Virus record (IMG/VR): IMGVR_UViG_3300030108_003390
Span: 1-22,597 of that record
Reading direction: 5' to 3' (one strand)
Length of the DNA: 22,597 nt
Origin: a virus
In this document: positions 6,891-17,217 of the stretch, one piece after another
Layout of the letters: each line of letters opens with the position of its first letter
How positions within the stretch are numbered: the stretch's first letter is position 1
The notes under the pieces: generated by a model
Database searches by the model: none
Told to the model about the DNA's origin: nothing
What the model saw: only the letters and a program-made list of their open reading frames with translations
Position numbers and translations under genes: made by a program

Positions 6891-7799
6891 ATGGCTATCT
6901 CTCGCGCACAATTAGCGAAAGAGTTGGAACCCGGCCTTAACGCCTTGTTCGGACTTGAGTATGATCGTTATGAAAACGAACATGCCGAAATTTTTGAAGA
7001 AGAGACTTCGGATCGTGCATTCGAAGAAGAAGTAATGCTGGGGGGTTTTTCCACGGCACCTGTTAAAGGAGAGGGCGCAGCCATCAACTTTGACGATGCA
7101 CAGGAAACTTACACTGCGCGTTACACACACGAGACAATAGCTCTTGCGTTTTCAATTACGGAGGAAGCGATTGAAGATAATCTTTATGATCGTCTTGCAT
7201 CTCGTTACACCAAGGCTTTGGCTCGCTCTATGGCGCAGACTAAGCAGATCAAGGCGGCATCTATTTTGAACAATGCGTTCAACACGGGTGCTAACGCGAT
7301 TGGTGACGGTGCTGCGTTGTGTTCGAATGCTCACCCATCGTTGTCTGGAAATCAACGCAACCTTTTGTCAACTGCAGCGGATCTCAACGAAACTTCTCTT
7401 GAGCAAATGCTTATTGACATTGCTGGTCTTACTGATGAGCGTGGTTTGAAGATTGCCGTTCGCGGTATGAAGTTGATAATTCCAAAAGAGCTTCAGTTTA
7501 TTGCGGAACGTGTTCTAAATTCGAACCTACGACCCGGAACTGCGGACAATGACAACAATGCCTTGCGTAGCATGGGAATGCTTCCAGAAGGTGCGGTAGT
7601 AAATCACTTCCTTACCGACACAGACGCATTCTTTATTAAAACTGATGCGCCAAACGGTTTTAAGTATTTTAACCGTGCGCCCATCAAGACTGCGATGGAA
7701 GGTGATTTTGATACAGGAAACATGCGTTTTAAGGCTCGTGAGCGTTATAGCTTTGGAGTTTCTGACTGGCGTTGCGTTTTTGGTACACCCGGCGCATAA
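6891..7799 (+). CDS. Major capsid protein (HK97 fold, Mu gpT-like)
   Basis: 302 residues, ATG 6891 after TAAGGAGGG, the strongest ribosome-binding site in the block. The sequence resembles the Mu gpT-like major head subunit family: N-terminal helix ISRAQLAKELEPGLNALFG, an acidic segment EHAEIFEEETSDRAFEEEVM, YTHETIALAFSITEEAIEDN, ALARSMAQTKQ and AALCSNAHPSLSGNQ near the middle, then ERYSFGVSDWRCVFG at the C-terminus. No prohead-protease gene is in the window, which fits a scaffold-dependent, uncleaved coat. A perfect intrinsic terminator follows about 60 bases downstream, consistent with a heavily expressed gene closing its transcription unit. Confidence 0.9.
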   Translation: MAISRAQLAKELEPGLNALFGLEYDRYENEHAEIFEEETSDRAFEEEVMLGGFSTAPVKGEGAAINFDDAQETYTARYTHETIALAFSITEEAIEDNLYDRLASRYTKALARSMAQTKQIKAASILNNAFNTGANAIGDGAALCSNAHPSLSGNQRNLLSTAADLNETSLEQMLIDIAGLTDERGLKIAVRGMKLIIPKELQFIAERVLNSNLRPGTADNDNNALRSMGMLPEGAVVNHFLTDTDAFFIKTDAPNGFKYFNRAPIKTAMEGDFDTGNMRFKARERYSFGVSDWRCVFGTPGA

Positions 7800-8728: not shown

Positions 8729-9028
8729 ATGACCATAAGGGAAAGAAAACGCAAAAGCGATAACATGCCAAAGCGTAATAAAAAGAATTTTCGCCCCACT
8801 GAAAAAGGGGCGGGAATGACTAAGGCAGGAGTAAAGGCGTACAGGCGAAAAAATCCCGGTTCAAAATTACAAACGGCTGTAACAGGAAAGGTGAAAAAGG
8901 GCAGTAAGGATGCAAAACGACGTAAATCTTTTTGTGCACGGTCTGCTGGACAGATGAAGAAGTTTCCTAAAGCTGCAAAAAACCCTAACTCTCGTTTGAG
9001 ACAGGCAAGAAAGCGTTGGAAATGTTAG
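8729..9028 (+). CDS. Lys/Arg-rich small protein with CARSAGQMKK motif
   Basis: 99 residues from ATG 8729 (AAGGTG five bases upstream); an internal ATG at 8765 lacks a ribosome-binding site. It is extremely basic. Conserved-looking stretches are PTEKGAGMTKAGVKAYRRKN and PGSKLQTAVTG, then RRKSFCARSAGQMKKFPKAA and a final RKRWKC. I recall this as a domain of unknown function found in many marine phages and some large viruses. It contains two cysteines in the conserved part. DNA binding or a capsid-internal location is suggested only by charge. It opens a cluster of similar cationic proteins. Confidence 0.75.
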   Translation: MTIRERKRKSDNMPKRNKKNFRPTEKGAGMTKAGVKAYRRKNPGSKLQTAVTGKVKKGSKDAKRRKSFCARSAGQMKKFPKAAKNPNSRLRQARKRWKC

Positions 9029-9222
9029 ACAAACAGATAACTTGGGCCCTTGTAACTGCGTTGGTGGGTATCATAGGAGCGGTTTCGTATACTTGGGCAA
9101 GTTGGACAACAGAAACTTTAATTGCTGTAGATAAGCGTACAGAAGTTATGGCGGCACAAATAGAGTATATTAAAAAAGAGATGGAGATTATTTATGGCGA
9201 TGTCTCGCAAAAAACAAAATAA
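9022..9222 (+). CDS. Small single-TM protein with coiled-coil tail
   Basis: 66 residues from ATG 9022, which overlaps the preceding gene by seven bases; a TTG at 9016 is an alternative. An N-terminal hydrophobic segment (about 7-28, ITWALVTALVGIIGAVSYTW) is followed by a charged helix ending EYIKKEMEIIYGDV. The layout resembles small inner-membrane phage proteins with one TM and a coiled coil. It could be a lysis accessory or i-spanin-like protein, but it lies far from the endolysin and has no visible o-spanin partner. It overlaps the next gene by 29 bases. Confidence 0.6.
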   Translation: MLDKQITWALVTALVGIIGAVSYTWASWTTETLIAVDKRTEVMAAQIEYIKKEMEIIYGDVSQKTK

Positions 9223-9430
9223 AACGCCCAAAGGTCTAACTTATTTCCGCAAGGGAGGGGAAGCCTCTCGCAAAAGTAAGGGTAGTAAAATTTGTCCAGA
9301 AGGCAAGGCGTGGGCGAAGCGTACTTTTGACACGTATCCAAGCGCATATGCCAACTTAGCTGCCTCAAAATATTGCAAAGATCCAAATTATGCAAAAAAA
9401 GCAAAAGGCGGCAAGCGAAAGGGCAAGTAA
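9194..9430 (+). CDS. Cationic small protein with KICPEGKAWAK motif
   Basis: 78 residues, ATG 9194 with GGAG (9183-9186) seven bases upstream. The core is SKICPEGKAWAKRTFDTYPS followed by AYANLAASKYCKDPNYAK. This Cys-Pro plus YPSAYAN plus Cys signature is one I recall in small basic proteins of cyanophages, marine podoviruses and some giant viruses, annotated only as a domain of unknown function. The two cysteines may bind a metal or form a disulfide. The tail is a KAKGGKRKGK run. Confidence 0.75.
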   Translation: MAMSRKKQNKTPKGLTYFRKGGEASRKSKGSKICPEGKAWAKRTFDTYPSAYANLAASKYCKDPNYAKKAKGGKRKGK

Positions 9431-9431
9431 G

Positions 9432-9560
9432 GTGCTGAACAAAAAAAAGAGAGCCTCTGTGAAAAAAGTGATTAGAAGCTTGAACAAGGCTTCAAAAGCA
9501 CATGCGGGACAGGCTCGTAAACTTAAAAAAGTTATTGGCCCCACTAAAAGGCGTAAGTAA
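9432..9560 (+). CDS. 42-residue Lys-rich mini-protein with SKAHAGQA motif
   Basis: GTG 9432 to TAA 9558-9560 encodes 42 residues; AAAGGG (9418-9423) lies eight bases upstream. The sequence contains VKKVIRSLNKASKAHAGQAR followed by KLKKVIGPTK, a helical, strongly basic pattern I recall in very short conserved marine-phage proteins. The next gene's ATG follows its stop directly. A genuine gene is supported by the snug spacing on both sides and the motif. Function is unknown; nucleic-acid binding is plausible from charge. Confidence 0.62.
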   Translation: MLNKKKRASVKKVIRSLNKASKAHAGQARKLKKVIGPTKRRK

Positions 9561-9938
9561 ATGGGTGAGCTAAAAAAGTGGTTAAAACAAGACTGGGTAA
9601 GGATTGGTAGAGATGGTAATATCAAAGGTCCGTGCGGTACTTCGAAAGATAAAAAAAATCCTGACCGGTGCCTTCCAAGGTCGAAAGCAAACTCTCTTAG
9701 TAAATCCCAAAGAAAAGCCACTGCAGCCAAAAAAAAGCGAGAAGGTGGAAGAGGCAAAACCGTTGTCAAAAACACCAAAGCCGCAGAAGTCAAATTCGCG
9801 TCCAGCGGTGGTGAAATCAAAAAGCAAAAAGCCAAGAGGCCGCCCCCGAAAAAAAGTGCAGAGGGCGTAGTTGCAAGAGGTTGTGGCAAAGTGATGTCTA
9901 ATCGTAGAAAAAGAACAAAAGGTTCAGTTTCAACATAA
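9561..9938 (+). CDS. Lys-rich virion-associated candidate with two conserved segments
   Basis: 125 residues, ATG directly after the previous stop. The N-terminal segment KKWLKQDWVRIGRDGNIKGP with CGTSKDKKNPDRCLPRSKA, then RKATAAKKKREGG, matches a small basic protein family I recall in many phages. The C-terminus VARGCGKVMSNRRKRTKG carries a second short signature usually seen at the end of other tiny basic phage proteins, so this gene may be a fusion. Between them lies a Lys/Ala/Pro-rich linker. Three cysteines are present. The +1 frame over the same DNA encodes a peptide with an AT-hook core (see findings). Confidence 0.7.
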   Translation: MGELKKWLKQDWVRIGRDGNIKGPCGTSKDKKNPDRCLPRSKANSLSKSQRKATAAKKKREGGRGKTVVKNTKAAEVKFASSGGEIKKQKAKRPPPKKSAEGVVARGCGKVMSNRRKRTKGSVST

Positions 9939-9956
9939 CTTCATAAGGAGAAAAAG

Positions 9957-10205
9957 ATGCCAAAGAAGAAAAAAGGTTACCGTGCTGGTGGTAAAGTCAA
10001 AAAGATGGCTAAAGGCGGAGCGATGGGCGGTAAGATGCGTCGCATGGCTAAAGGCGGAGCGATGGGTGGCAAGAAGCCCACAAAGATGATGGGCGGTGGG
10101 AGTGCCATGACTATGGCTCAATTGAGAGCGGCGGCAAAACAAAAAGGTATGACTCTTACTCCTATGAAAATGGCTAAAGGCGGTATGGCGAAAAAGAAAA
10201 AGTAA
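9957..10205 (+). CDS. Gly/Lys/Met-rich repeat protein (KMAKGGAMGGK repeats)
   Basis: 82 residues, ATG 9957 after AAGGAG. It is almost wholly Lys, Gly, Met and Ala: a YRAGGK start, two copies of MAKGGAMGGK and a C-terminal MAKGGMAKKKK, with one conventional helix between (AMTMAQLRAAAKQKG). Similar Met/Lys/Gly-rich mini-proteins occur in marine phage structural regions, as far as I recall. It resembles protamine-like or disordered nucleic-acid-binding peptides in composition only. The stop overlaps the next ATG (TAATG). Confidence 0.72.
   Translation: MPKKKKGYRAGGKVKKMAKGGAMGGKMRRMAKGGAMGGKKPTKMMGGGSAMTMAQLRAAAKQKGMTLTPMKMAKGGMAKKKK
10005..10073 (+). repeat. Two 30-bp near-identical direct repeats (39-bp period)
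   Basis: Copies at 10005-10034 and 10044-10073 differ at two third-codon positions and encode MAKGGAMGGK. A third, partial copy shares ATGGCTAAAGGCGG at 10170-10183. Confidence 0.85.
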
Positions 10206-10882
10206 TGTCATATTTATATTCGAACGTGCCTTATTTTAAGGCATGGGTTCGCCGTGAGTACACTCATAATCATGAGCAGTATCACGGCGACTTTTTACAT
10301 GCGATGGTCATAGGTGTTACTTGCATTCCAAACAGGTGTCTAAGTTTTCAAGTTTTGTTTACAGGAAATGAGGCAGAGGATGCGGAAGAAGATACAGTTC
10401 ACGGGGGTGCAATGTGGGCCCGTATGCCAATTACTGCTTTGGTTGGCGACATACCTCTTGAAGAATGGCCTGAGCCAATGGACACGTACCAAGCACAACC
10501 TTGGGATTGCGCATCACATCATCATGCCGTTTTTGTTATGGATCGGGCCACACCTTGTCCTTGGATGGCAAAAATAGATGGAGAGATGTATCCGGCACAA
10601 TACTTGTTTACTGTTGATTATACCCAAAGTGAGATAGCAGATGACCCCGCACAACATAAACAGAGCCATGTATTGCAATTGTTGGATGCTGGCGAATGGA
10701 CTGGGAATGTTGTTGCATTGCCTAATAATAGGGTGAGAGTAACGCATCCAGCATGGTTTGTTACAGGAGAAGGGCCACCGGACTTTAAACCGTCGCAACA
10801 TATACACTATTCAAAAAGTGATTTAGACTATACACTTGATGTAAATCGCATCTTCGACAATTTATACAATGGAGAGGATTAA
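10205..10882 (+). CDS. Conserved phage structural-region protein, function unknown
   Basis: 225 residues, ATG 10205 overlapping the previous stop. Recognisable stretches are VRREYTHNHEQYHGDFLHAM, CLSFQVLFTGN, ARMPITALVGDIPLEEWP, QPWDCASHHHAVFVMDR and YLFTVDYTQSE, then DFKPSQHIHYSKSDLDY. I recall homologues with VRREYLxDHxxxxGEF and PISAFV elements in cyanophages and other marine phages, annotated hypothetical. The protein looks globular, with aromatic and His-rich segments and no TM. Its place just before the gp4-like adaptor suggests a head or neck role. Confidence 0.7.
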   Translation: MSYLYSNVPYFKAWVRREYTHNHEQYHGDFLHAMVIGVTCIPNRCLSFQVLFTGNEAEDAEEDTVHGGAMWARMPITALVGDIPLEEWPEPMDTYQAQPWDCASHHHAVFVMDRATPCPWMAKIDGEMYPAQYLFTVDYTQSEIADDPAQHKQSHVLQLLDAGEWTGNVVALPNNRVRVTHPAWFVTGEGPPDFKPSQHIHYSKSDLDYTLDVNRIFDNLYNGED

Positions 10883-11550
10883 TGGCGTTATCGGGATCAA
10901 AAGACTTTGAATTAGATGTTGCAGAGTATATTGAAGAGGCTTTTGAACGATGCGGTTTAGAGGTTCGCACGGGATATGATTTGCGGACTGCACGGCGTTC
11001 TTTGAATCTTATGTTAGCAGAGTGGGCAAATCGTGGGTTAAATCAATGGACTATTAAACAGCGGACGCTTACATTAACGCAAGCAGACGGTGAATATGAT
11101 CTTGGCACAGATGTAATAGATATTTTATCGGTGGTCGTCCGACGTAGTAACACGGATTTTTCTATTGAACGTGTGAGTCGGGATACGTTTTTAGCTATAC
11201 CAAACAAGACAACACAAGGTCGGCCCGCTCAGTTTTTTCTTGATCGTCAGATCACTCCAAATTTAAAGATTTGGCCGATTCCTGAAAACAGCACGGATGT
11301 AATTTTGTATGATGCTTTGACTCGCATGGATGATGCGGACGCTCAAACCAATACTATGGACATGCCTTTTAGGTTTTATCCGTGTTTAGCGGCAGGTTTA
11401 GCTTACTACATTGCGATGAAACGAGCTCCTCAACGCATTCAATTACTCAAAGCTGTTTATGAAGAAGAGTTTGAAAGAGCAATGGCAGAGGATCGGGATC
11501 GAGCATCTTTTAATGTAGTGCCCCGATATGAGTATTTTAGGACAGGTTGA
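10882..11550 (+). CDS. Head-tail connector, P22 gp4-like adaptor
   Basis: 222 residues; the ATG overlaps the previous TAA. The N-terminal helical region (DVAEYIEEAFERCGLEVRTG, then TARRSLNLMLAEWANRGLNQ) and the following TLTLTQADGEYDLGTDVIDI match the P22 gp4 / tail accessory factor family pattern (helix, L-N-x-M-L-x-x-W, then G-x-x-x-Y-x-L-G). The C-terminal half has the FYPCLAAGLAYYIAMKRAP helix and a final acidic helix. Family members dock under the portal ring and prolong the channel toward the tail. The TGA overlaps the next gene's start. Confidence 0.82.
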   Translation: MALSGSKDFELDVAEYIEEAFERCGLEVRTGYDLRTARRSLNLMLAEWANRGLNQWTIKQRTLTLTQADGEYDLGTDVIDILSVVVRRSNTDFSIERVSRDTFLAIPNKTTQGRPAQFFLDRQITPNLKIWPIPENSTDVILYDALTRMDDADAQTNTMDMPFRFYPCLAAGLAYYIAMKRAPQRIQLLKAVYEEEFERAMAEDRDRASFNVVPRYEYFRTG

Positions 11551-12335
11551 TGTCAAAATTTGCGTCTGGCAAAAACTCTTATGCGATTTCTGATCGGTCT
11601 GGTTTTCGTTACCGATACAGAGACATGCGCAAAGAGTGGAATGGCGCATTAGTCGGCAAGGATGAATTTGAGCCAAAGCAGCCTCAGTTAGGACCTTTTA
11701 GAAAAGTAATCGATGCACAGGCTCTACGAGAAGCCCGCCCGGACATTGCCTCTGGTTTATCTGTTTTTGTAGGGATACCTTTGGTTGAAATACCAAACCC
11801 GCGTCCATTAGTGGGATTTGGAAAAGTTGGTTCGGTCAGCGTGACGACAAATGAAAGTGTAGTTTCTTTCAATGTTACGGGCGTTTCTGCTACGGCTTCC
11901 GTTGGGTCGGCGGAGGTTACTGCTCAAGCTGTTTCAGTGGCAACTTCTGGATTGACCGCTACGGGTGATATAGGCACCGTTACTATACCAAATGAGAGTG
12001 TATCCCTTACCGGCACATCTGCAACCGGATTAGTTGGTTCGGTTGCAGCCGCGGGAGACATATTAGCACCGGTTACCGGTCTTACAGTCACGGCCTCTGT
12101 GGGAACGCCGACTGTATCGGCGGGAGCGACGGCCCCGACTTCTATTTCTGGTTTAACAGGATCCGTAGGATCCGTATCGGTGTCGTTAGACGTTACAATT
12201 ACTTTGACAGGTTTAAGTGCAACAGGTAATGTCGGAACCGCTACGGTTTTCACAGGTACGTGGGCCTTAGCTTCAGGTTCTTGGAGTGATTCTGGGGTTT
12301 GGAGTGATAGCTCTTATTGGAATGATGGATCTTAG
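11550..12335 (+). CDS. Tail-associated protein with TGxxATGxVG repeats
   Basis: 261 residues, ATG 11550 in TTGATG overlapping the previous stop. The N-terminal 70 residues (SKFASGKNSYAISDRSGFRY, RYRDMRKEWNGALVGKDEFE) form a conserved basic domain often found right after the connector in marine phages. Residues about 103-238 comprise six 20-24 residue units of the form V-T-G-x-x-A-T-x-x-V-G-x-x-x-V, each a likely beta hairpin. The C-terminus is Trp/Ser/Asp rich (GSWSDSGVWSDSSYWNDG). The same repeat type recurs in the protein at 16696. It is probably a tail appendage or spike, with the N-terminal domain as virion anchor. Confidence 0.72.
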   Translation: MSKFASGKNSYAISDRSGFRYRYRDMRKEWNGALVGKDEFEPKQPQLGPFRKVIDAQALREARPDIASGLSVFVGIPLVEIPNPRPLVGFGKVGSVSVTTNESVVSFNVTGVSATASVGSAEVTAQAVSVATSGLTATGDIGTVTIPNESVSLTGTSATGLVGSVAAAGDILAPVTGLTVTASVGTPTVSAGATAPTSISGLTGSVGSVSVSLDVTITLTGLSATGNVGTATVFTGTWALASGSWSDSGVWSDSSYWNDGS

Positions 12336-12346
12336 AGGACTGTGTA

Positions 12347-15283
12347 ATGGGTACATTTTCAGACGGCGAAAGCGGATCTTCGGTTCGTACAAAGATAAAC
12401 GCTGCGATTGAAAAGACAGAGGGCACCTCTGCAATATCGACTGTTGACATTAACGGTGGTGCAATTGATGGCGTGACGCTTGGGACAAACTCTGCCGTCA
12501 CGGACTTGCGTGTTGATAACATTAAAGTTGACAGCAATGAGATCTCAGCAACAAATACGAACGGCAATGTTCAAGTCACTCCGAATGGTACAGGTGTTGT
12601 TGAGGTCAAAGGTGCAGGTGGTAATGATGGAACGCTTCAGTTAAACTGCTCTGTAAACAGTCATGGCGTTAAAATTAAATCACCGCCACATTCTGCGGGT
12701 GCTTCTTACACATTAACGTTACCTAACAATGACGGCGATGCGTCACAGTTTTTGCAAACGGACGGTTCAGGAACGCTAAGTTGGGCAGCGGCGGGGGGGA
12801 CAGGTGTAACTGTTCATACAAACCAAGCTGCGATGCTCACGGATGCAGCGTCTGCTTCCGAGGGGTCTTTGCACTATGACACTGATGCGAATAAGCTCTA
12901 TGTGAAGCAAAGCAGTGGTTTCTTTTTACTAGCGACAATTACAAACACCACGCCAACTATTACTAGTTTTTCTGAGAACACAGGCGGTGCTGGTGCCAAT
13001 AATCTTACGACGGGCGGAACTTTTGGATTAACGGCTGGTTCGAATACGGTAATAACGATTAATGCCACTGATCCAGACCTTGAAACGCTCGTATACTCTG
13101 CCACAGTAACGAGTGGGACGGCAAGCAATGTTATTTCATCGCCGAGTCTACCCATCTCCAATCAATCTGGAAATACTTTTACGTTGGTGCCCGTGACCTC
13201 AGGGAGCGGCGGAAGTATAACAGTCCGTTTTGACGTGAGCGATGGGAATAATATTGCGAACGTAACTCAATCTTTTGAGATAACGTTTACTGTTACAGAC
13301 AGTAATTTTACCCGCCTGTTGATGGCTACTGATGATGCCGTTGGTGGCAATCAAAGCATCACGGATAGTTCGTCAACTGCCCATACAATCACCGTAAATA
13401 ATGATTCTCATGCAGGCAGTTTTTCGCCTCATCGGCACGGTGGATATAGCGTATTTTTTGACGGCAACGGTGATTATTTAAGTGTCGCGGATCACTCTGA
13501 TTTTGACTTGACTTCTGATTTTACAATAAAATTTTGGGCAAGGCACACTTATTATTATGCTCAAAACTTAGGCTATATTTACGGATATTTTGGTAATTTT
13601 TATTCGGCTGGCGGTTTAGCGTTGAGTGTCCGAGGCGCAAATAGCGATGGCGTTGTATTTTCATGGATGAACAGTTCGGGAACTCTCACAAACACAAATT
13701 TAAGTTTTTACCCAAGTCTTAACCAATGGTATTTTTACGAGTTAACGAGATCCAGTAACACATTAACGATCAAGGCCGATGGAACAACAATTCACACCGT
13801 TGATGTATCAACCCTGGGCAACCCTAGCCGCCCTTTGGTGATAGGAAATATACCTAGCGGTGCGTCAGGCATTGATACATTTGGTAATTTGTTTGGGTAC
13901 ATAACTGACTTTCAATATGTAACTGGCGGAACTGCGACAGAAGCATCTGTGCCGACTGCGCGTTTAACCTCTGACTCAAATACTGCGTTATTAACTTGCC
14001 ACCTACCTTACTTGTCAGATGGTTCATCAACAGGACATTCGATTACGATTGGCGGAGATCCATCAACCGAGCCTTTGTCTCCGTATGATAATGATGAGTA
14101 TGTAGAGAGCATTAATGGCGGGTCTATATCTTTTGATGGTAGTGCAGACAGTCTACAACTTACAGCAAGCGCTGATTTGCAGGCACTTGGCAGAACAGGA
14201 ACGGCGGCAACAATAGAGGCGTGGGTTTACCTTAACTCTGCACCGTCGTCGAATGGAACCGCTGTATACTCGCTTGGCACGGCGGGAAGCACAGGCGGCA
14301 ACAATATTTTGTCGTTCGAAATACAAAATAATAGAACGTTACGAGGAATGGTTAATGGGGGATATAGCAACACAACTGGTTGTCCCATAAGTACCGGAAC
14401 TGTACCACTAAAAATTTGGACGCATATAGCGCTTGTTTTAAACAGCGGCACTTGGACGATCTATCTCAATGGGTCTGCAGATGGAACTGCAACAGGCAGT
14501 TACCCAAGCGGAGCAAATCACAGCACAGCATTCGTCGGACGTGTTTTTTATGATAACGGACGTGACGCCGACATGGTTGTTTCAGACTTAAGAATTACTT
14601 CAGATGCTCAATATACAACTACTTTTACGCCCCCAACTGCTCCACTTTCAACCGTATCGAATACAAAGCTGCACATAAAAGGCACTGACGCGCATGTTTT
14701 AGACAAATCGCAGGTAAGTAATTTGAAGCTCGTTGGTGGGGCAGCGGCAAGCACGACCCAAGCCAAATTTGGAAGCACGGCAAGCGTTTATTTCGACGGT
14801 TCGGATGATATTGTGCAGACTCCGCAATCGTCCATGTTTAATCTTGGTACTGGAGCATTTACGGCAGAATGCTTTTTCCGCGTAAATGATGACGATCAAA
14901 ATTCTTTAATTTATTTTCTTAGCGGGAATACTAACGTTCTAGGTACTTTTTACTTTCACACAAACAATAGTATCGCTGTCTATGACAGTGGCTATATTAC
15001 AGGAAATACAGGAAGCGGAAGCAATCATAATATTTTAAGTATCAACACTTGGCATTATCTGGCAGTAACCCGCGACACAACTACAATGCGCGTCTACATT
15101 GACGGCACACAAGTTTTTAGTGGATCAAACACTACAAATTATTCGACTGACAATATTAGGCTAGGTGGTCATCAGTATGGAAATTACTTAAATGGTTATC
15201 TTCAGGATGTGAGAATATCTATCGGTAAAGCTAGGTACACGGGTAGTACGCATACTGTACCAACATCATCATTGAAAGGTTAG
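12347..15283 (+). CDS. Large tail fibre / adhesin with Ig-like and three LamG-like domains
   Basis: 978 residues. The N-terminal 190 residues are fibre-like (SDGESGSSVRTKINAAIEKT, TNGNVQVTPNGTGVVEV and DGSGTLSWAAAGGTGV). An Ig- or cadherin-like region spans about 200-321 with ITINATDPDLETLVYSATVT. Three concanavalin-A/LamG-type modules follow at about 364-528, 591-768 and 813-978. Each opens with an S-x-x-F-D-G-(N/S)-x-D pattern (FFDGNGDYLS, SFDGSADSLQ, YFDGSDDIVQ) and closes with a G-x-(I/L)-x-D-(F/V/L)-(Q/R) type strand. LamG modules commonly bind glycans, so this is a strong candidate receptor-binding protein for host surface polysaccharide. It sits between the connector-region genes. Confidence 0.82.
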   Translation: MGTFSDGESGSSVRTKINAAIEKTEGTSAISTVDINGGAIDGVTLGTNSAVTDLRVDNIKVDSNEISATNTNGNVQVTPNGTGVVEVKGAGGNDGTLQLNCSVNSHGVKIKSPPHSAGASYTLTLPNNDGDASQFLQTDGSGTLSWAAAGGTGVTVHTNQAAMLTDAASASEGSLHYDTDANKLYVKQSSGFFLLATITNTTPTITSFSENTGGAGANNLTTGGTFGLTAGSNTVITINATDPDLETLVYSATVTSGTASNVISSPSLPISNQSGNTFTLVPVTSGSGGSITVRFDVSDGNNIANVTQSFEITFTVTDSNFTRLLMATDDAVGGNQSITDSSSTAHTITVNNDSHAGSFSPHRHGGYSVFFDGNGDYLSVADHSDFDLTSDFTIKFWARHTYYYAQNLGYIYGYFGNFYSAGGLALSVRGANSDGVVFSWMNSSGTLTNTNLSFYPSLNQWYFYELTRSSNTLTIKADGTTIHTVDVSTLGNPSRPLVIGNIPSGASGIDTFGNLFGYITDFQYVTGGTATEASVPTARLTSDSNTALLTCHLPYLSDGSSTGHSITIGGDPSTEPLSPYDNDEYVESINGGSISFDGSADSLQLTASADLQALGRTGTAATIEAWVYLNSAPSSNGTAVYSLGTAGSTGGNNILSFEIQNNRTLRGMVNGGYSNTTGCPISTGTVPLKIWTHIALVLNSGTWTIYLNGSADGTATGSYPSGANHSTAFVGRVFYDNGRDADMVVSDLRITSDAQYTTTFTPPTAPLSTVSNTKLHIKGTDAHVLDKSQVSNLKLVGGAAASTTQAKFGSTASVYFDGSDDIVQTPQSSMFNLGTGAFTAECFFRVNDDDQNSLIYFLSGNTNVLGTFYFHTNNSIAVYDSGYITGNTGSGSNHNILSINTWHYLAVTRDTTTMRVYIDGTQVFSGSNTTNYSTDNIRLGGHQYGNYLNGYLQDVRISIGKARYTGSTHTVPTSSLKG

Positions 15284-16695: not shown

Positions 16696-17217
16696 ATGGC
16701 TGACGCAAAGGTTGTCTTTTCGGGTTGGGATTCTTCCACACAAACTTGGGGTGCTGGGGGCTGGGGCCAAGACGTTGCGATTACAACTGCGGCCACAGGC
16801 GGGACAAACAGCGTCACAGTCGAAGGAGCAGCCTCTGTACCGGAAACAGGTCTTGCTGCGGTAACCGGAGTTGGCTCTATTACAATTTCCGTGGGTTCGG
16901 GCGTGTCGACAAACGTGACAGGCTTACAGGCTTCTGGTTCGGTAAATGCGGTTTCTGTCGGGGCCGCGGCATCTGTTACGGTCACGGGTCTTGCGGCAAC
17001 GTCTGGTGTAGGTTCCGTTACTCTTAAAACAAATCAAATCATCCCGGTTGTCCCAAGTGGCATATCCTCGACAGGAGAGGTTGGTTCTGTTACAGTGATT
17101 GGAGATGCAAATGTGTTTCCGACGGGCATCTCTGCTACTGGTGAAGCGGGTCGTACAACGGTTTGGGGTAAAATCATCCCTGATATAAGCACAACATGGA
17201 CTGAAATAGCTGCGTAG
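16696..17217 (+). CDS. Virion repeat protein sharing TGxxATGxVG units with 11550 gene
   Basis: 173 residues. The N-terminus KVVFSGWDSSTQTWGAGGWG is Trp/Gly rich; about 47-155 contains five 22-24 residue units such as SVTVTGLAATSGVGSVTL and VFPTGISATGEAGRTTVW. The C-terminus IIPDISTTWTEIAA is a closing element I recall in marine phages. The units are clearly of the same class as in the protein at 11550, so the two probably share an ancestor or form part of one appendage. The repeats are likely a beta-solenoid or string of hairpins. No catalytic motif is visible. Confidence 0.7.
   Translation: MADAKVVFSGWDSSTQTWGAGGWGQDVAITTAATGGTNSVTVEGAASVPETGLAAVTGVGSITISVGSGVSTNVTGLQASGSVNAVSVGAAASVTVTGLAATSGVGSVTLKTNQIIPVVPSGISSTGEVGSVTVIGDANVFPTGISATGEAGRTTVWGKIIPDISTTWTEIAA

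Follow-up and report, generated by a model that had tools for sequence, protein, structure and literature searches.

A conserved cassette of small cationic protein genes between the capsid and adaptor genes of a marine podovirus-like phage, with related modules in T4-like cyanophages

The internal proteins IPI, IPII and IPIII of phage T4 bind DNA at low salt, are present at about 360 copies each and are ejected, and the T4 leader directs proteins into the head (PMC9026906). Phage DNA is thought to be neutralised by metal ions and polyamines, with basic proteins helping little (PMC3281028). Among the systems described in the same paper are the virion proteins of high pI of chlorovirus PBCV-1, which stay with the DNA and some of which join a basic domain to others, and the protamine-like proteins of adenovirus and baculovirus (PMC3281028).

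The window analysed here is a stretch of 22,597 nucleotides (positions 1 to 22,597 of IMG/VR virus record IMGVR_UViG_3300030108_003390). Its source is a marine podovirus-like phage. It has the gene order portal-like gene, M15 peptidase, co-chaperonin-like gene, capsid (6891–7799) and adaptor (10882–11550), the last being of the SU10 type (PF24175). This order resembles that of pelagiphages HTVC023P and HTVC027P and, most closely, that of lake phage DSL-LC04, in which capsid, cement, DUF6321, small basic genes and adaptor follow one another as they do in the window. At the DNA level the whole window gave no near match to phage records. Three further genes (11547–12335, 12347–15283 and 16696–17217) encode repetitive Val/Thr/Ser/Gly-rich proteins with recurring TGLxATGxVG-like repeats, which are probably of the fibre or surface type.

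Six consecutive ORFs on the + strand occupy positions 8729–10205. An earlier note on this DNA had described five of them as strongly cationic, which translation and charge counts confirmed, and all of the signatures that it quoted are present in the translations. The five proteins (K1, K3, K4, K5 and K6) have net charges of +0.23 to +0.38 per residue and are the top five by this measure among 34 genes; the remaining genes of the window have a mean of -0.024 and a maximum of +0.10, and acidic proteins are encoded by the capsid, adaptor and neighbouring genes. With random placement, the chance of five genes falling within six consecutive ones is approximately 146/278256, or 5e-4.

K1 (8729–9028) encodes a DUF6321 protein of 99 amino acids with a net charge of +32 and invariant Cys69 and Cys99. 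It scores 49.9 bits against Pfam PF19846 (DUF6321), for which the curated cut-off is 28.5; matches were found in 365 phage records, and the Cys pair is kept in 103 of 104 homologues. TM2 (9022–9222), which overlaps the K1 stop codon, is the one member of the cluster that is not cationic: its near neutral product (66 amino acids, net -1) has an N-terminal hydrophobic stretch, a dN/dS of 0.157 and only weak PHROG matches, and could be a lysis or membrane protein. K3 (9194–9430) specifies the KICPEGKAWAKRTFDTYPSAYAN protein (78 amino acids, net +19), a match to PHROG 27331 (E 4e-23) with an almost invariant core (alignment A3) and invariant Cys34 and Cys61, both present in 149/149 homologues. The KASKAHAGQA protein K4 (9432–9560) has 42 amino acids and a net charge of about +17 if read from the GTG at 9432, near which its homologues begin, or 56 amino acids and +21 if read from the ATG at 9390; the shorter form accounts for the lower size limit given in the earlier note. 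K5 (9561–9938), the PCGTSKDKKNPDRCLPRSKA protein, comprises 125 amino acids with a net charge of +29 and matches PHROG 23735 (E 2e-24). It has at least 571 confirmed relatives in a scan of viral contigs; its conserved Cys25 and Cys37 are retained in about 153 of 156 homologues, and Cys108 is present in most. An AlphaFold model of K5 residues 2–63 reached moderate confidence only, and a fold search with this model gave no match. K6 (9957–10205) is a MAKGGAMGGK repeat protein of 82 amino acids, net +25, with no Asp or Glu and no family match. The gene that follows it (10205–10882) encodes an acidic protein of 225 amino acids belonging to PHROG 3704, a family annotated variously as purM or ferredoxin, and shows 26–28% identity to cyanophage copies.

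PDB sequence searches with the cluster proteins returned nothing, no solved structure resembling them. The Cys pairs that had been ascribed to several of these proteins are found in K1, K3 and K5 and not in the other members. The earlier statement that no function is established for these families was right: K1 belongs to DUF6321, which has no known function in Pfam, and the other matches are to PHROGs without known function.

K1, K3, K4, K5 and K6 are conserved coding genes under purifying selection, with median dN/dS values of 0.087 for both K1 and K3, 0.18 for K5, 0.36 for K6 and 0.38 for K4. They fall into two sorts. In alignments of homologues K1, K3 and K5 show nearly invariant cores in addition to their Cys pairs, and in K4 and K6 composition is better preserved than sequence.

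Relative contigs were chosen by their capsid protein alone, so the small genes had no part in the selection. In 56 complete capsid-to-adaptor intervals the order of the cassette genes was unchanged throughout (56/56). Co-occurrence of the signatures, proposed earlier as a check, proved complete for K3 and K5 (present in 46 and 47 intervals, respectively; both in 46, neither in 9, K5 only in 1) and partial for K1 (24), K6 (19) and K4 (8). Inside this clade no statistical linkage of K1 with K3 or K5 was seen over the 56 intervals. K6 co-occurs with the PHROG 3704 gene next to it (p = 1.4e-7, uncorrected for relatedness); the contigs are related to each other, so p-values overstate the evidence. 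Cationic ORFs, defined by a net charge of at least +10 and at least +0.15 per residue, were counted in 55 relatives and amounted to 0.91 per kb between capsid and adaptor versus 0.05 per kb elsewhere on the same contigs. This density, some 18 times higher, corresponds to 146/432 ORFs within the interval versus 22/829 elsewhere (Fisher p 1.7e-52, which is no true probability since the contigs are related). At least one cationic ORF was present in 51 of the 55 intervals, and by the cut-offs used none in the other 4.

Intervals without K1, K3 and K5 often hold other basic families, namely PHROG 16028 (GLYANIHAKRKRIAAGS), PHROG 7595 (FRARHNC...ARYWSCK) and proteins with RGGGM repeats. Such a swap for unrelated basic proteins is, we infer, the expected outcome of selection on charge. 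PHROG 16028 and PHROG 7595 were seen in the same slot of the capsid-to-adaptor interval at four loci (L133, L104, L152 and L160). PHROG 7595 also matches inside an ICP1 ORF annotated as capsid protease and, weakly, a PHROG annotated as 'minor head protein and DNA pilot'.

When K3 and K5 served as direct tblastn queries, few annotated phages came up, so links to other phages rest on profiles. Relatives of K3, K5 and K1 are neighbours in HTVC203P (gp24, gp23 and gp26, respectively), lie together upstream of groES and capsid in HTVC027P, and are located between scaffold and capsid in the T7-like cyanophage P-SCSP2; in other phages the set recurs at a second place in the genome. Bacterial and archaeal bins supplied 46 DUF6321 loci, most likely on phage contigs, of which 17 have K3-like and K5-like ORFs (the K3 threshold being loose) in two alternative places. 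In several lineages DUF6321 genes adjoin terminase, scaffold or capsid genes.

In T4-like cyanophages a single protein, T4-GC119, joins K5-like, K3-like and DUF6321 modules. All three are fused in S-SM1, S-SCSM1, S-B43 and relatives, and all three signatures occur in 64 of 79 DUF6321 ORFs from loci that were fetched with S-SCSM1_29 and so were selected by that query. Profile comparison (hhalign) with the GC119 modules gave 99.3% for K1, 95.9% (E 5e-9) for K5 against the N-terminal module, and 58% (E 1e-4, 16 columns) for K3 against the PSAYA module, with mismatched pairs at no more than 0.4%. The single-profile scores of K5 against GC119 (16–18 bits) do not stand out from the top score among 6800 shuffles (17.2). 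K3 and its GC119 counterpart share the PSAYA motif between two Cys, but this link is weak because the profile probability is only 58%. A structure model of the fused protein was too poor for use. S-SZBM1_190 ('virion structural protein') was considered as a GC119 homologue and rejected, as no module of this type is present in its sequence. Besides the three modules, cyanophage GC119 proteins (L309 and other GC119 loci) contain another basic one with a Cys pair, CWKGYEKKG...PNC. The coordinated role that the earlier note had suggested draws support from the fusion of the three modules, the constant gene order, the pairing of K3 with K5 and of K6 with its neighbour, and the recurrence elsewhere.

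Mass spectrometry of S-SCSM1 virions identified 45 phage proteins (PMC9602691). The GC119-type protein S-SCSM1_29 bears the GenBank label 'virion protein'. Since this label is also borne by ORF91, ORF213 and ORF214, which PMC9602691 names as detected, and is missing from several predicted structural genes of this phage, among them that for the head completion protein, it very probably indicates mass-spectrometric detection. In S-CREM2, ORF137 (108049–109521) was detected in virions with 4 unique peptides (4.1% coverage) and its basic neighbour ORF136 with 8, the authors noting that abundant contaminants are possible (PMC10665884). The end of ORF137 is a DUF6321 domain (109291–109512). Because this protein is acidic overall (-20) and its coverage is tiny, the cationic module alone may not explain its packaging. 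The 30 proteins that mass spectrometry revealed in S-SZBM1 virions do not include the DUF6321 protein S-SZBM1_192, and GC119 of S-SM1 is annotated as hypothetical though the S-SM1 virion was analysed; Lys/Arg-rich proteins are poorly seen by tryptic methods, and we infer that such absence weighs little. The literature searched contained no virion proteome for a phage that has the small genes separately.

The N-terminus of S-SZBM1_192 (MKTFKQYITEA) is a near copy of that of T4 ipII and ipIII (MKTYQEFIAEA, T4 record). In cyanophage loci 27 of 34 T4-type leaders lie on or beside the DUF6321 gene, although some excess is expected as the loci are centred there. A universal T4-type leader on DUF6321 proteins was rejected, only 4 of 131 having one, and the K1, K3 and K5 alignments show no conserved leader of this capsid-targeting type, which in T4 is cut by the prohead protease. 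The earlier proposal that the proteins are packaged or ejected with the DNA gains indirect support from the mass-spectrometric detection of DUF6321 proteins in two cyanophage virions and the leader on a third.

We give about an even chance to the reading that the cassette encodes head-internal, DNA-associated proteins which act like the T4 internal proteins without being related to them in sequence. Speaking for it are the observed charge and clustering, the purifying selection and Cys pairs, the constant order and co-occurrence, the module fusion in cyanophages, the positions beside head genes in several lineages, the virion detections of DUF6321 proteins and the T4-type leader of S-SZBM1_192. 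Its products would be late, head-associated, nucleic-acid-binding proteins built into the particle, against the packaged genome. K1, K3 and K5 would work together as small structured modules, a conserved Cys pair holding each of them, and K4 and K6 would be loosely conserved polycations supplying extra positive charge. They would probably enter with the prohead or with the DNA and probably help to organise or partly neutralise it, and they may be ejected with it. Here DNA would be the ligand, the proteins would be present in the virion of this phage and inside rather than outside it, and the properties of the homologues would carry over to the small separate proteins. Against this reading, K3 and K1, with their near-invariant sequences, show more conservation than a simple counter-ion would need, and the classical view finds no evidence for a large contribution of basic proteins to the neutralisation of phage DNA (PMC3281028). 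The absence of S-SZBM1_192 from the detected virion proteins, the low frequency of the leader among DUF6321 proteins and the lack of linkage of K1 to K3 or K5 also count against it.

The same near-invariance would suggest a fixed protein partner, as expected if the cationic, Cys-stapled modules served as structural glue or cement that binds acidic capsid, portal or neck proteins and not DNA. The acidity of the capsid, adaptor and neighbouring proteins and the placement of the genes between capsid and adaptor agree with this, and virion detection of the homologues fits it equally. We nevertheless regard it as unlikely: the head proteins that would be the partners are very different in the podovirus and the myovirus lineages sharing the modules, cassette-family genes also occur apart from the capsid genes in some phages, e.g. 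HTVC203P and HTVC010P, and four intervals lack any cationic ORF by our cut-offs. Distinctly unlikely is a role as DNA-binding helpers that aid terminase or the filling of the prohead but do not stay in the virion. In its favour, terminase genes flank DUF6321 genes in P-TIM68, Venkman and S-TIP28, cyanomyoviruses have the DUF6321 gene between gp16 and gp17, and in Venkman an endonuclease VII gene is adjacent; against it stand the detection of homologues in purified virions of two cyanophages and the targeting leader of S-SZBM1_192. Charge alone would permit proteins that are made in the cell and bind host nucleic acid or ribosomes outside assembly, but such a host-takeover function is very improbable given the virion detection and a head-module position in every lineage except LMM01, HTVC010P-type and similar cases. 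That the lysine-rich ORFs are mere by-products of an A-rich strand, as the positive AT skew across the cluster (+0.33 at 9001–10000) might have hinted, is ruled out for practical purposes: dN/dS lies far below 1 for each of the five, homologues number in the hundreds, the Cys pairs are invariant and synteny is preserved.

DUF6321 is not mentioned in the literature searched, which included few subscription papers, and no description of the linked cassette or of its tie to a virion protein was found there. The families themselves were already known as unknowns; the linkage and the virion-protein tie are the new part, and give DUF6321 and several uncharacterised PHROG families a first lead to function. 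Now that a cationic cassette has proved to be conserved in ocean phages that are very common, and to be tied to a cyanophage virion protein, the assumption that basic proteins help little becomes testable in cultured isolates. A bolder and on balance unlikely extension of the head-internal reading is that abundant podoviruses of the sea use a dedicated set of structured, Cys-paired cationic proteins to pack their DNA, a phage counterpart of viral chromatin, and that T4-like cyanophages have this set fused into a single protein.

As in T4, one phage would supply a number of small, basic proteins of the head, and the cassette products are indeed basic; the K1 relative S-SZBM1_192 has the T4-like leader. 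The T4 proteins are, however, less cationic (+4 and +9) and poorly conserved, whereas K1, K3 and K5 are strongly conserved and have Cys pairs. Because there is no sequence kinship and the proteins of the window have no conserved leader, we assign no cassette protein to the T4 internal-protein family. The basic virion proteins of PBCV-1, with their basic adaptor domain, are alike in high basicity, but they come from a eukaryotic algal virus and gave no sequence match, and their DNA association was measured. Protamine-like proteins are small and very basic, and K4 and K6, being of low complexity and loosely conserved, may resemble them (dN/dS 0.38 and 0.36 versus 0.087 for K1 and K3 with their near-invariant cores). 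K1, K3 and K5 differ from them in their constrained sequences and in their Cys pairs, and in the cassette lysine exceeds arginine; a plain counter-ion role would fit K4 and K6 better, since the sequences of the other three are tightly constrained. T4-GC119 (PHROG 727 / 3477), very probably present in S-SCSM1 virions, has in common with the cassette the DUF6321, K5-like and, weakly, K3-like modules, but there they form one long myovirus polypeptide with further modules and acidic linkers, and in the window they are separate genes.
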